DNA from: Paracrocinitomix mangrovi
Lineage (GTDB): Bacteria; Bacteroidota; Bacteroidia; Flavobacteriales_D; Crocinitomicaceae
Direction of reading: 5' to 3'
Assembly: GCF_019740355.2 (NCBI RefSeq)
Contig: NZ_CP091819.1
Span: 1,798,001 to 1,862,000 of the forward strand
DNA: 64,000 bases
A program made the translations under genes and the position numbers. Positions 3,858-11,160 of the stretch are shown here, in pieces. Numbering within the stretch: position 1 is the stretch's first letter; every line of letters begins with the position of its first letter. The notes beneath the pieces were generated by a model, which did no database searches, was not told the DNA's origin, and was given only the letters and a program-made list of their open reading frames with translations.

Positions 3858-3999
3858 CTACACGCAACACAATAGTTAAAGCGCATGACCCAACCTTTTT
3901 TACCTTCACTCCTAATAGCCATAAGGATCGCACGCAATTCAACTACAATTTCATTTTCATTGAACAAAGTAAATTGCTAGCTTTAGGCAAACGTTGTGA
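3858..3999 (+). repeat. attC-like site 4
   Basis: The left arm ACACGCAAC (3860-3868), a 9-nt spacer and AAAGCGC mirror the right arm GCTAGCTTTAG, GCAAAC and GTTGTGA (3993-3999). The left spacer carries one base more than the right (9 versus 8). This could correspond to the extrahelical base known in the left arm of attC sites. The total is 142 bp. Confidence 0.75.
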
Positions 4000-4010
4000 T
4001 TCATTGGGCC

Positions 4011-4439
4011 ATGAAGACATTTATTAATATAGTTCTGACAATTACGCTTTTCTCCCTTTGCTCATGTAGTTCAAAAGAACAGAAAGTAGACAAATTAAAG
4101 GAATCGAATAAAATTGAAATTCATGAAACTTCCTTTGGTGGAATTGCTGGTGGCTCAGAATCGGATTACCTAATTATTCGAAATGATGAAGAACGATATA
4201 TTCTTTGCTATGTGGGAGAAGAGTATGAAACTAAAATTCCGTTTACTTCGGAAAAAGATTCAATTTTTAACGAGTTTTTAAACTATAGTCTTGATTCAGA
4301 TAATCCCGACCGAGAGCATGTATCAGGCTGTTTTGGTCCTAAAGATCGCATTTATAATTTCACAAGTGGATGGATTACTTTAACACTTAGTCCAGACTAT
4401 GGCGCCCATGATTTGTTTGACAAATTGAAAAAGGAATAG
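4011..4439 (+). CDS. Small lipoprotein of unknown function (cassette gene)
   Basis: The ATG at 4011 is chosen over the GTG at 3996, which lies in the attC core. It begins a lipoprotein signal (MKTFINIVLTITLFSLCSC), with Cys17 or Cys19 as the likely lipid anchor. The mature part is acidic and contains GGIAGGSESDYLIIRND and a central helix, with no recognised domain. The cassette boundaries agree with each other: the first bases after the core (GTTGTGATTC) are 9/10 complementary to the left arm of the next repeat (GAAACACAAC at 4445-4454). This gene therefore sits in an apparently complete cassette of about 460 bp. Confidence 0.7.
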   Translation: MKTFINIVLTITLFSLCSCSSKEQKVDKLKESNKIEIHETSFGGIAGGSESDYLIIRNDEERYILCYVGEEYETKIPFTSEKDSIFNEFLNYSLDSDNPDREHVSGCFGPKDRIYNFTSGWITLTLSPDYGAHDLFDKLKKE

Positions 4440-4444
4440 AAACC

Positions 4445-4585
4445 GAAACACAACACAATAATTAAAACGAATGACCTAATCTTATTTACTTACACTCCTA
4501 ATAGCCATAAGGATCCCACCCAATGCAACTACAATTTTATTTTCTTTGAATAAAGTAAATTGCTAGCTTTAGCCAAACGTTATGC
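4445..4585 (+). repeat. attC-like site 5
   Basis: The left arm GAAACACAAC (4445-4454), a 9-nt spacer and AAAACG mirror the right arm GCTAGCTTTAG, CCAAAC and GTTATGC (4579-4585). The outer arms and spacing match sites 2-4, and the middle CTCCTAATAGCCATAAGGAT is almost identical to site 4. Confidence 0.75.
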
Positions 4586-4588
4586 ACT

Positions 4589-4972
4589 ATGCCTAACTGG
4601 ACTGACGGTGAAGACATATTAATCGGAGAAGATGAGTATATCTCATGGATCAACTGGGATCTTGACAAAGTGCAAGTGCATGATATCGACTATCTAATTG
4701 ACCCAAAAAATAAGTTTTGGAATTCTCTTGAAACCTTATGTGTAGCAGAATGTTGTGGACTTGATGCTTTTGATTGGACAACGGAAAATGTTACCAAAGC
4801 ATACTTGGAGTGCGACCGAGAGGAGTTAACAAAAACCCTCGAGGATGCAATTAATGTAATTGAGAACAGGACAGAAAATGTTGTGAGCTCTACTCGATTG
4901 AATCAGCTATTCGACAGGCATGTTTTCATTAACCTACTGAAGCACTTAAAAAAACAGTGCATAACACTATAA
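4589..4972 (+). CDS. Hypothetical protein, DUF6331-like (cassette gene)
   Basis: The 127-residue acidic soluble protein has the motif LCVAECCGLDAFDW near residues 50-63, which I associate with the DUF6331 family of unknown function. A tryptophan-rich N-terminus (NWTDGEDILIGEDEYISWINWD) precedes it. The start is 10 nt after the GTT core. The final residues CITL and the stop are read from the left arm of the next repeat (AGTGCATAACACTATAA). This cassette shows the clearest boundary match: the 5' GTTATGCACT (4579-4588) and the 3' AGTGCATAAC (4956-4965) are exact reverse complements over 10 bases. Confidence 0.65.
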   Translation: MPNWTDGEDILIGEDEYISWINWDLDKVQVHDIDYLIDPKNKFWNSLETLCVAECCGLDAFDWTTENVTKAYLECDREELTKTLEDAINVIENRTENVVSSTRLNQLFDRHVFINLLKHLKKQCITL

Positions 4973-4990
4973 ATAAAGTTCATGTCCTCT
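4956..4990 (+). repeat. attC-like left half, right side diverged
   Basis: The left arm AGTGCATAAC, a 9-nt spacer and AAAGTTCATGTCC match the left side of the full repeats. Downstream to 5070 the sequence no longer matches the family apart from weak similarity (ATAAATTACTGCACATAAAGTAAC). Confidence 0.55.
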
Positions 4991-5071
4991 CTTTCAAGTT
5001 TTAACTGCAACCCCGCATAACATTCATGGTTACTTTATAAATTACTGCACATAAAGTAACAAATCTAGATT

Positions 5072-5541: not shown

Positions 5542-5571
5542 GGACAATTTCCTAACTTTAGTAAAACATTA
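5542..5571 (+). repeat. Degenerate attC-like right half, variant type
   Basis: GGACAATTTCCTAACTTTAG (5542-5561) followed by TAAAACATT. The same 20-mer recurs exactly at 6058-6077. It aligns with the canonical right arm AAATTGCTAGCTTTAGACAAACGTT with scattered substitutions, so it appears to be a second, diverged lineage of the same repeat. Confidence 0.5.
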
Positions 5572-5628
5572 GAATCAACTGTGAATCGACTTATGTAACT
5601 AAAACGAACACAAACTTGTTTAACTAAC

Positions 5629-6057: not shown

Positions 6058-6086
6058 GGACAATTTCCTAACTTTAGACAAATGAT
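6058..6086 (+). repeat. Degenerate attC-like right half, variant type
   Basis: GGACAATTTCCTAACTTTAG followed by ACAAATGATT is the second exact copy of the 20-mer seen at 5542. It lies just after the stop of the frameshifted gene and 20 nt before the next ATG. Confidence 0.5.
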
Positions 6087-6105
6087 TTAACCTACATAAA
6101 ACTTC

Positions 6106-7202: not shown

Positions 7203-7233
7203 TACAGTAAATTGCTAGCCTTAAGCAAATGAT
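7203..7233 (+). repeat. Last degenerate attC-like right half
   Basis: CAGTAAATTGCTAGCCTTAAGCAAATGAT matches the canonical right arm (AGTAAATTGCTAGC is exact) with a damaged core. It is the rightmost member of the repeat family seen in the window and marks the approximate end of the array. Confidence 0.55.
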
Positions 7234-7240
7234 ATCATCA

Positions 7241-9497: not shown

Positions 9498-10157
9498 ATG
9501 AGCGAAAAGTCAAAAGTTAACTGGAAATCGATAATTGCGCAAGGACTAGTGCTATCCATTAGTATTTACGTTCCATTTTTTCTTCAAAACTGGTATGCCA
9601 ACAAACAATCCAATGAGTTAAATGAACAGTACAAAGGGTACCTTGTTGAAGATTTACAATCTGACTTGGCAGTTATTGATTCTATGCTAGTTTCAAATCA
9701 AACTTATTTAGACTCAGCAATGTCAATTTTTGTGGTGCCGGTTAATGATAATGATGGTTTACTTAAAAGAGCTGAAAAAGCTTTGATGTTAGGAATGACG
9801 GATGAATTTTATCCGGTCACTGACATTGAAACATATATTGACCAATTTAGAGAACACGGCGGAAAACGTGATCTCAAGCTAGTTAGAGAATTAGGAACAC
9901 TTAAAATCTCCTTCCAAAAAATATTCATGATCGACAAAAGAAGAGAAGAATATCGCAAAGAATATTATACGCCTATGTATCTATCCAAATATTCAATAAA
10001 AGGAGGTTTTCCTGAGGTCACCGATCCGGAATATTTTGGATCAGATCATTTCATAAATACGGTTTCATTACTATATAGACTTTCAATTCAAACAAACAGC
10101 ATTTATGAAAGAGCACAGGAACAATGTCAAACCGTGCTAAACACTTTGGAAGATTAG
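9498..10157 (+). CDS. Single-pass membrane protein, DUF6090-like
   Basis: The ATG at 9498 is chosen over the in-frame TTG at 9489, which is part of a -7-like element. A short cytosolic N-terminus is followed by one transmembrane helix (IIAQGLVLSISIYVPFFLQNWY) and an extracytoplasmic helical region. The layout resembles DUF6090-type Bacteroidota proteins, which start with a helix ending in an NW motif and then E..YL..L..DL; here this is QYKGYLVEDLQSDL. The function is unknown. It could form a small group with the neighbouring lipoproteins. Confidence 0.55.
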   Translation: MSEKSKVNWKSIIAQGLVLSISIYVPFFLQNWYANKQSNELNEQYKGYLVEDLQSDLAVIDSMLVSNQTYLDSAMSIFVVPVNDNDGLLKRAEKALMLGMTDEFYPVTDIETYIDQFREHGGKRDLKLVRELGTLKISFQKIFMIDKRREEYRKEYYTPMYLSKYSIKGGFPEVTDPEYFGSDHFINTVSLLYRLSIQTNSIYERAQEQCQTVLNTLED

Positions 10158-10199
10158 TTTATTTAACTAGCTTTAAGTGAATTATTCTTTTAACCCAAA

Positions 10200-10802
10200 A
10201 TGAAAATTTATCACATTCTGATTTTTCTGATGCTGTTTGCATGCAGCGAAAATTCAAGCCAGCAAGAAGAAGTAAAAGAAAATCATACTCATGAGACTCC
10301 TTTTGAAGAGTTTATTTCAAAAATTCCCGCTTATGATTTTCCTGTTAAAATGACTTGCAACTTTGATCGCCTTGTAGAAGATAAAGCATTTACAGATTAT
10401 CTTAATTTCTATCCTGAACAAGGAAGATTAATCGCCAAACTTAACTCATCATCTGAATACGCATTGGTTATTTTTGATTTTGCTTGCGATTATTCTTGTC
10501 CTATTCTATACTCTTATGATAAAAAGGGGGACAGAATTGACTCTTTAAATTTGACTCCCGGACAATGTGCCGAGGACCCTTTTTTGAGCAGCAGAAATTG
10601 GTTTATTATAAATGAAGATATTAATATTGAATTGGTTGACACCTCTGATTATTTTTCAAAAGGAGACAATAAATTGATGGATTCAACGACTATTGAAATG
10701 AAATCATACAAACTGAATTCAGATGGTCATTTTGAAACTGTTACCCATACAATTGAGACTTTTCTTAATGATTCAACAAAGCAAGGTTTAGTGATTGATT
10801 AA
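10200..10802 (+). CDS. Lipoprotein of unknown function
   Basis: The signal sequence MKIYHILIFLMLFACSE has its lipobox ending in Cys15. The mature protein of about 185 residues is acidic. It contains DFACDYSCPILYSYDKKG (two Cys near residues 96-100) and another Cys in TPGQCAEDP, so it may carry a disulfide. No family is recognised. It overlaps the upstream part of the next small membrane gene's region and could be translated with it. Confidence 0.6.
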   Translation: MKIYHILIFLMLFACSENSSQQEEVKENHTHETPFEEFISKIPAYDFPVKMTCNFDRLVEDKAFTDYLNFYPEQGRLIAKLNSSSEYALVIFDFACDYSCPILYSYDKKGDRIDSLNLTPGQCAEDPFLSSRNWFIINEDINIELVDTSDYFSKGDNKLMDSTTIEMKSYKLNSDGHFETVTHTIETFLNDSTKQGLVID

Positions 10803-10815
10803 TTTGTTAATACTG

Positions 10816-11034
10816 ATGCCGATTTTTGAAGTGATAGGAGAAATAATTGTAGAAATACTATTTGAAAATATACTCTATTTTCTGCTGTCCGTTCCAGGTG
10901 CTTTTTTCAGATTTATCATCTCGCGATTTTGGATGTCCAAGAGAAGTTTAAAAGATTTTATAAAAGATGATCCTATGATGAATGGCATTGTTGGATTAAT
11001 TGTTTTCATCTTAATCGGCTTAATTATCGTTTAA
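10816..11034 (+). CDS. Small membrane protein
   Basis: The ATG at 10816 is chosen over a TTG at 10795 inside the previous gene. The 72-residue product has two hydrophobic helices: a long amphipathic or hydrophobic N-terminal region through FLLSVPGAFFRFII, and a C-terminal helix GIVGLIVFILIGLIIV. Between them is a basic and acidic linker (SKRSLKDFIKDD). No function can be given. The 14-nt gap to the preceding stop suggests co-transcription. Confidence 0.55.
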   Translation: MPIFEVIGEIIVEILFENILYFLLSVPGAFFRFIISRFWMSKRSLKDFIKDDPMMNGIVGLIVFILIGLIIV

Positions 11035-11160
11035 CAGTTAATTAAATTCTCCCAATCAAACCTCATTACTCACTTTTCTGAATTGTTGATAAAAAGAATT
11101 TATTTCACCCAAAACCATGGGCAATAATTTTTACATTTATCCCTTCAAAATTGATTGATT

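Follow-up and report, generated by a model that had tools for sequence, protein, structure and literature searches.

Gene cassettes in the window

The first 7235 positions of the window, a stretch of 64,000 nucleotides from the chromosome of Paracrocinitomix mangrovi, are occupied by small open reading frames that lie on the forward strand between attC-like sites. This region is the distal, partly decayed end of an array (array 1) that extends 27 kb upstream of the window, covers about 1,771,119-1,805,231 of the chromosome (a single contig of 4.37 Mb) and comprises approximately 45 attC-like sites in total. No integrase was found within or near array 1. The proteins encoded by the cassettes between positions 1 and 7150 include a TonB C-terminal domain, MORN repeats, a DUF6331 protein and an alpha/beta hydrolase, and several others in the same interval have no Pfam match. 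Rfam and tRNA scans of the window returned no matches.

All sites and remnants of sites are on the forward strand. The first attC-like site (345-452) has the AAC of its R'' box at 352-354 and the GTT of its R' box at 443-445; in the second (857-999), the AAC of R'' ends at 866 and the GTT of R' stands at 990. These are followed by a remnant that consists of the L'-R' half only (1477-1505), a degenerate site with GCT at 2812 as its R' (2679-2821) and a site at 3859-4002, the R' of which opens the cassette at 3993. That cassette (3993-4578) begins with GTTGTGATTC (3993-4002) and is separated from the next one by a site of the 130-nt class (4445-4588), within which GAAACACAAC at 4445-4454 is the R'' of the cassette itself. 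The cassette at 4579 (4579-4965) begins with GTTATGCACT (4579-4588), bears the DUF6331 reading frame (4589-4972) and has AGTGCATAAC as its R'' at 4956-4965. The R''-L'' half of its attC can be read from the sequence at 4956-5060; no L'-R' half was found behind it, and this attC is therefore broken. Remnants farther downstream include L'-R' halves at 5549-5575 and 6065-6091, and the last recognisable one in the window lies at 7212-7235. The attC sites fall into size classes of about 130 and 160 nt. They differ in hairpin tips that can be exchanged, among them a CCCGATAGCTATCGGG palindrome within the loop; such tips are seen at 3940-3975, at 4525-4560 and in many other sites of array 1.

The initial annotation had drawn attention to the ends of these two cassettes, and its reading is borne out at the nucleotide level: GTTATGCACT and AGTGCATAAC are exact reverse complements over 10 bases, and GTTGTGATTC and GAAACACAAC are complementary at 9 of 10 positions. 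These are the two good cases in the window. The other distal sites, at 443, 1496 and 2812, match at 0-3 of the seven variable bases, so that a larger set was needed.

Pairing within and between cassettes

We scored the seven variable bases that follow GTT, comparing each cassette with its own end and with the junction it forms with the next cassette. The R'' box was located by its own motif, independently of any self-match. Across 74 cassettes of two arrays in the P. mangrovi genome, self-pairing averaged 5.91 of 7 and neighbour pairing 3.27 of 7, with 42 cassettes pairing perfectly; when partners were shuffled 20,000 times, the mean was 3.16 and no value exceeded 3.72. A non-redundant set from the same genome yielded 5.84 against 3.13. 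Self-matching is high at positions 4-10, absent at position 11, which carries a constant C-A mismatch, and constant at positions 12-13. Two sister genomes (G026 and G004) show an average of 6.69 for self-pairing and 3.00 for neighbour pairing over 35 cassettes, 28 of them perfect, and in four arrays of Flavobacteriaceae with quite different attC sequences all 10 of 10 cassettes have an exact self-match. Pairing with self thus exceeds pairing with the neighbour in 74 + 35 + 10 cassettes from seven genomes. The comparison proposed in the initial annotation, namely of self- and neighbour complementarity in a larger set, comes out as it expected, with self-pairing far higher and neighbours at the level of chance.

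Near-identical cassettes occur 2-4 times in arrays 1 and 2 of the P. mangrovi genome with different neighbours. On the right side, their aligned identity stops at GTT; on the left, the similarity between the attC ends of neighbours makes the boundary indistinct. These alignments indicate that cassettes move as units. Repeated intergenic palindromes of the REP or MITE kind, or terminators, lying between genes that are not recombined, would account for tips such as CCCGATAGCTATCGGG recurring in attC loops. This explanation is hardly credible and already contradicted, since the paired bases flank the gene and are specific to the individual cassette, as the initial annotation had argued against random intergenic repeats, and since units of gene plus site are duplicated whole with boundaries at GTT. 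The elements in the window belong to a large collection of gene cassettes, an integron.

Self-pairing is also distributed unevenly between arrays. Array 2, which starts at position 2,331,070 of the chromosome and has about 34 sites with mostly intact cassettes, lies beside a recombinase gene; there 30 of 34 cassettes pair with themselves at 6 or more of 7 positions, against 29 of 40 in array 1. Only a minority do so in arrays 3 and 4, to which a cruder criterion was applied. This gradient suggests that the pairing is maintained by use. Arrays 3 and 4 (920-955 kb and 2,436-2,456 kb; loci L178-L180) carry the same attC family, have no integrase and are largely decayed. With several attC sites and no integrase nearby, array 1 conforms to the definition of a CALIN (cluster of attC lacking integron integrase), and the window contains the decaying far end of this integrase-less, CALIN-like array of a large chromosomal integron system. 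The nearest candidate integrase, at array 2, is approximately 525 kb away.

Structure of the attC sites

In a consensus derived from 21 circularised sites, the R box spans 10 bp, and each of its pairs takes up to four Watson-Crick forms; a short spacer without pairing leads on to an 8-bp L box, which is fully paired and covaries as well. The sites therefore have the paired R''/R' and L''/L' arms of attC, both boxes covarying. Their R box, GTTR[TG]NNNN[AC]ATT, departs from the canonical RYYYAAC / GTTRRRY: GTT and the R at position 4 are retained, T or G occupies position 5, positions 7-9 are free and ATT is fixed at 11-13. The L box is followed, two bases from L', by a one-sided side hairpin of 4 bp (GCAA..TTGC, GGCA..TGCC), present in 84 of 118 sites against 51 (maximum 63) with shuffled arms. 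In sites of the long class its loop measures 4 nt; in the others, those of the window included, it mostly comprises 26-36 nt. Canonical attC sites carry single extrahelical bases, a conserved G and T in the L'' arm, where the side hairpin stands here; single bulges vary among our sites, alongside the paired 8-bp L box and the side hairpin. A short attC of G026, at about 70 nt, is the full form in miniature.

Bottom strands of circular attC sites fold at -29.5 kcal/mol, against -25.4 kcal/mol for the junction attC, the circle being the more stable in 64 of 74 cases. In 6 of 6 other lineages the bottom strand of the circle folds more stably than the top strand. Folding of the window's own attC was uninformative because this part of the array is degraded. 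The self-pairing, the repeated cassettes with other neighbours, the right boundary exactly at GTT and the covarying L''/L' arms together uphold the initial identification of the elements as integron cassettes.

A tyrosine recombinase at the head of array 2

The start of array 2 lies 53 bp past the stop codon of a gene for a tyrosine recombinase of 380 amino acids (positions 9887-11029 of locus L010, from 2,329,887 of the chromosome). A palindrome with 13-bp arms and then the GTT of the first cassette follow, all within 60 bp of the stop; the palindrome is located at 2,331,040-2,331,080 of the chromosome (about 11,050-11,080 of the locus). The site thus adjoins the recombinase gene and is joined to the first cassette at G^TT, as an attI site would be. 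The catalytic residues R236, K261, H326, R329, H352 and Y361 are invariant in 15 sequences, which places the protein among the tyrosine recombinases. It scores 139 bits against Pfam PF00589, 233 bits against NF040815 (XerA family) and 202 bits against the integron integrase profile TIGR02249, below its cut-off of 265 and with profile positions 179-240 skipped. The IntI-specific domain I2, an insertion of approximately 42 residues, is absent: the stretch from KDR to LRH has 70-72 amino acids in all the I2-less members shown, against 112 in five of five IntI of the phylum. In the tree, IntI form one clade with support of 100, and the I2-less group is separate (support 84, unstarred). An extra N-terminal domain of about 100 residues is predicted to fold as beta-beta-alpha-beta-beta-alpha in the structure modelled for the Winogradskyella homolog (mean pLDDT 85). 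The N-terminal domain of the recombinase has no significant Pfam match, and that of the homolog resembles HARP at an E-value of 0.066 only. XerA and Vibrio IntI4 take the top ranks in Foldseek, and the best matches by sequence in the PDB are 4a8e and 5hxy. By its sequence, with I2 lacking and an N-terminal domain added, the recombinase is not an IntI; it is most likely the enzyme that moves the cassettes.

The resemblance to Xer and XerA proteins (NF040815, 4a8e, 5hxy), along with the XerC/D-like genes present in the genome, might point to host XerC/XerD as the movers of these units, in the manner of pdif modules or CTX phage hairpins. We regard this as very improbable: the sites are hairpins whose variable R boxes covary inside the cassette, in place of a fixed 11-6-11 dif; cassette ends are free at 6-7 positions and have no dif-like core; and a dedicated recombinase gene heads arrays in many genera. 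XerA and XerH, which act as single enzymes at a palindromic dif by their gene, are the closest solved relatives of the recombinase in sequence and fold, but their task is chromosome dimer resolution, and neither is known to head cassette arrays.

Recurrence in other Bacteroidia

Relatives of the recombinase were found in 100 of 150 genomes of the family, and close relatives (~50-68% identity) in many genera, including Winogradskyella, Seonamhaeicola and Aequorivita. A GTT junction lies 42-70 bp past the recombinase stop in 15 loci, mostly right after a palindrome, and in 9 of the 15 the first cassette matches itself exactly, compared with 3.4% of control 10-mers (p ~2e-10). A self-match with one mismatch was discarded as a criterion in favour of the exact match, since random 10-mers reach 23%. 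The palindromes behind the recombinase have arms of 7-16 bp and differ in sequence between species, while their position a few nucleotides before the cassette GTT is kept.

The order of divergent zinc-finger gene, recombinase, palindrome and self-complementary cassettes recurs in several families of Bacteroidia. More distant homologs (~38-42%) in G224 and G259 also show the arrangement behind the recombinase. The attC sequence of these two is also present in G564, a genome of another family, which suggests that cassettes were transferred between families. Many draft contigs stop a few hundred bases past the recombinase, consistent with the effect of a repeat array. In P. mangrovi the divergent gene (9414-9806 of L010, reverse strand) encodes a cysteine-rich, zinc-finger-like protein of 130 amino acids (CxxxxC...CSxxC). 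It starts ~70-280 bp upstream of the recombinase in most close relatives and is missing in one subgroup; the same head-to-head gene stands upstream of the recombinases in L048-L053, L055, L056, L058-L060, L068-L073, L081, L078 and L083. Its product is possibly a regulator or an accessory DNA-binding protein. One genome, G077 (C1, C2), has thirteen recombinase matches, mostly scattered, near-identical genes of the superfamily encoding 300 amino acids, which look as if the gene itself might be transposable.

An ordinary IntI, since lost or acting in trans, could have captured the cassettes, leaving the recombinase of array 2 a bystander. The layout of the sites (AAC-spacer-L''...L'-spacer-GTT) does match canonical attC, CALINs are common in bacteria (PMC9024848), and a past IntI may have served the old arrays in trans. 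Such an origin is nonetheless improbable. No IntI above the TIGR02249 cut-off is present in the P. mangrovi genome, and only one of the 84 genomes with such an IntI in our sample of the phylum belongs to the class of the window. In many genera, and with different attC families, the recombinase immediately adjoins the start of the array, behind an attI-like site, and self-pairing is best preserved in the array beside it. The integron setting given in the initial annotation accordingly holds for the cassettes, but no canonical IntI serves the array.

Discussion

The explanation we consider very probable, on the strength of sequence comparison, is a class of integron run by an I2-less, Xer-like recombinase, with the window at the far, decaying end of an array that has no integrase and the platform ~525 kb away. 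This platform would consist of the divergent zinc-finger gene, the 380-residue recombinase, the attI-like palindrome and about 34 cassettes, most of them intact. Every cassette would extend from G^TT as far as the following G, and R'' and R' would pair because a single attC holds both in the free circle. The bottom strand of the circle's attC would fold into the hairpin of R and L boxes, the recombinase would join it to attI at G^TT, and replication would resolve the product, as in known integrons. The side hairpin could provide the choice of strand, which is a guess. The linkage of recombinase and array rests on comparison.

Much of this arrangement is shared with the integrons of IntI (class 1, the Vibrio superintegron, archaeal integrons): attI by the recombinase, a same-strand array, R''/R' and L''/L' arms, G^TT crossover and self-pairing (PMC2727003). 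This source served as our canonical baseline, since a scan of the phylum found no canonical attC arrays near true IntI that could act as controls. Self-pairing over 9-11 nt is already known in canonical integron cassettes (PMC2727003). The signature highlighted in the initial annotation is thus sound, yet textbook knowledge and not new in itself; the novelty lies outside the window. The recombinase lacks the IntI-specific domain common to archaeal and bacterial IntI (PMC9668308). It differs further in its extra N-terminal domain and its divergent zinc-finger partner gene, and the sites differ in having GTTR[TG]NNNN[AC]ATT, not GTTRRRY, as R box, a fully paired L box with a side hairpin, and a palindromic attI. 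Arrays 1, 3 and 4 resemble CALINs in having attC without an integrase nearby, but their attC family is different and the likely parent platform lies elsewhere on the same chromosome. Reverse integrons of Spirochaetes likewise have integrase and cassettes on one strand, with attI at the 3' end of the integrase gene. Their integrases are true IntI. Mention of this integrase orientation is made in PMC9668308.

The I2 domain is argued to read the extrahelical bases and to block the second strand exchange, and its helix has been described as the innovation through which an enzyme of the Xer kind became able to recombine single-stranded attC and to halt after a single strand exchange (PMC4792948). 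I2 is considered indispensable to all known integron integrases, but the enzyme most likely to move the present cassettes has none. Natural integrons without I2 make the claim of innovation testable. We lean, with some reserve, towards a second integron class widespread in Bacteroidia, in which a Xer-like enzyme without I2 would act on folded single-stranded attC and the strand would be chosen by the side hairpin rather than by extrahelical bases read by I2. Such a class would have arisen as a separate invention of the integron or else have survived from a stage before I2. In the literature searched, beside which unpublished, preprint or subscription work may exist, we found no fitting account of I2-less recombinases heading cassette arrays.

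IntegronFinder relies on the IntI-specific domain (PMC9668308), and searches of this kind are blind to integrons without I2; for Bacteroidetes proper, version 2.0 names one complete integron, that of Salinibacter (PMC9024848). The match of R boxes within a cassette offers a way to find cassettes without a fixed attC sequence. The genera of Bacteroidota that carry the arrangement are reported as almost free of integrons by standard searches, and a pool of mobile cassettes may have escaped notice.
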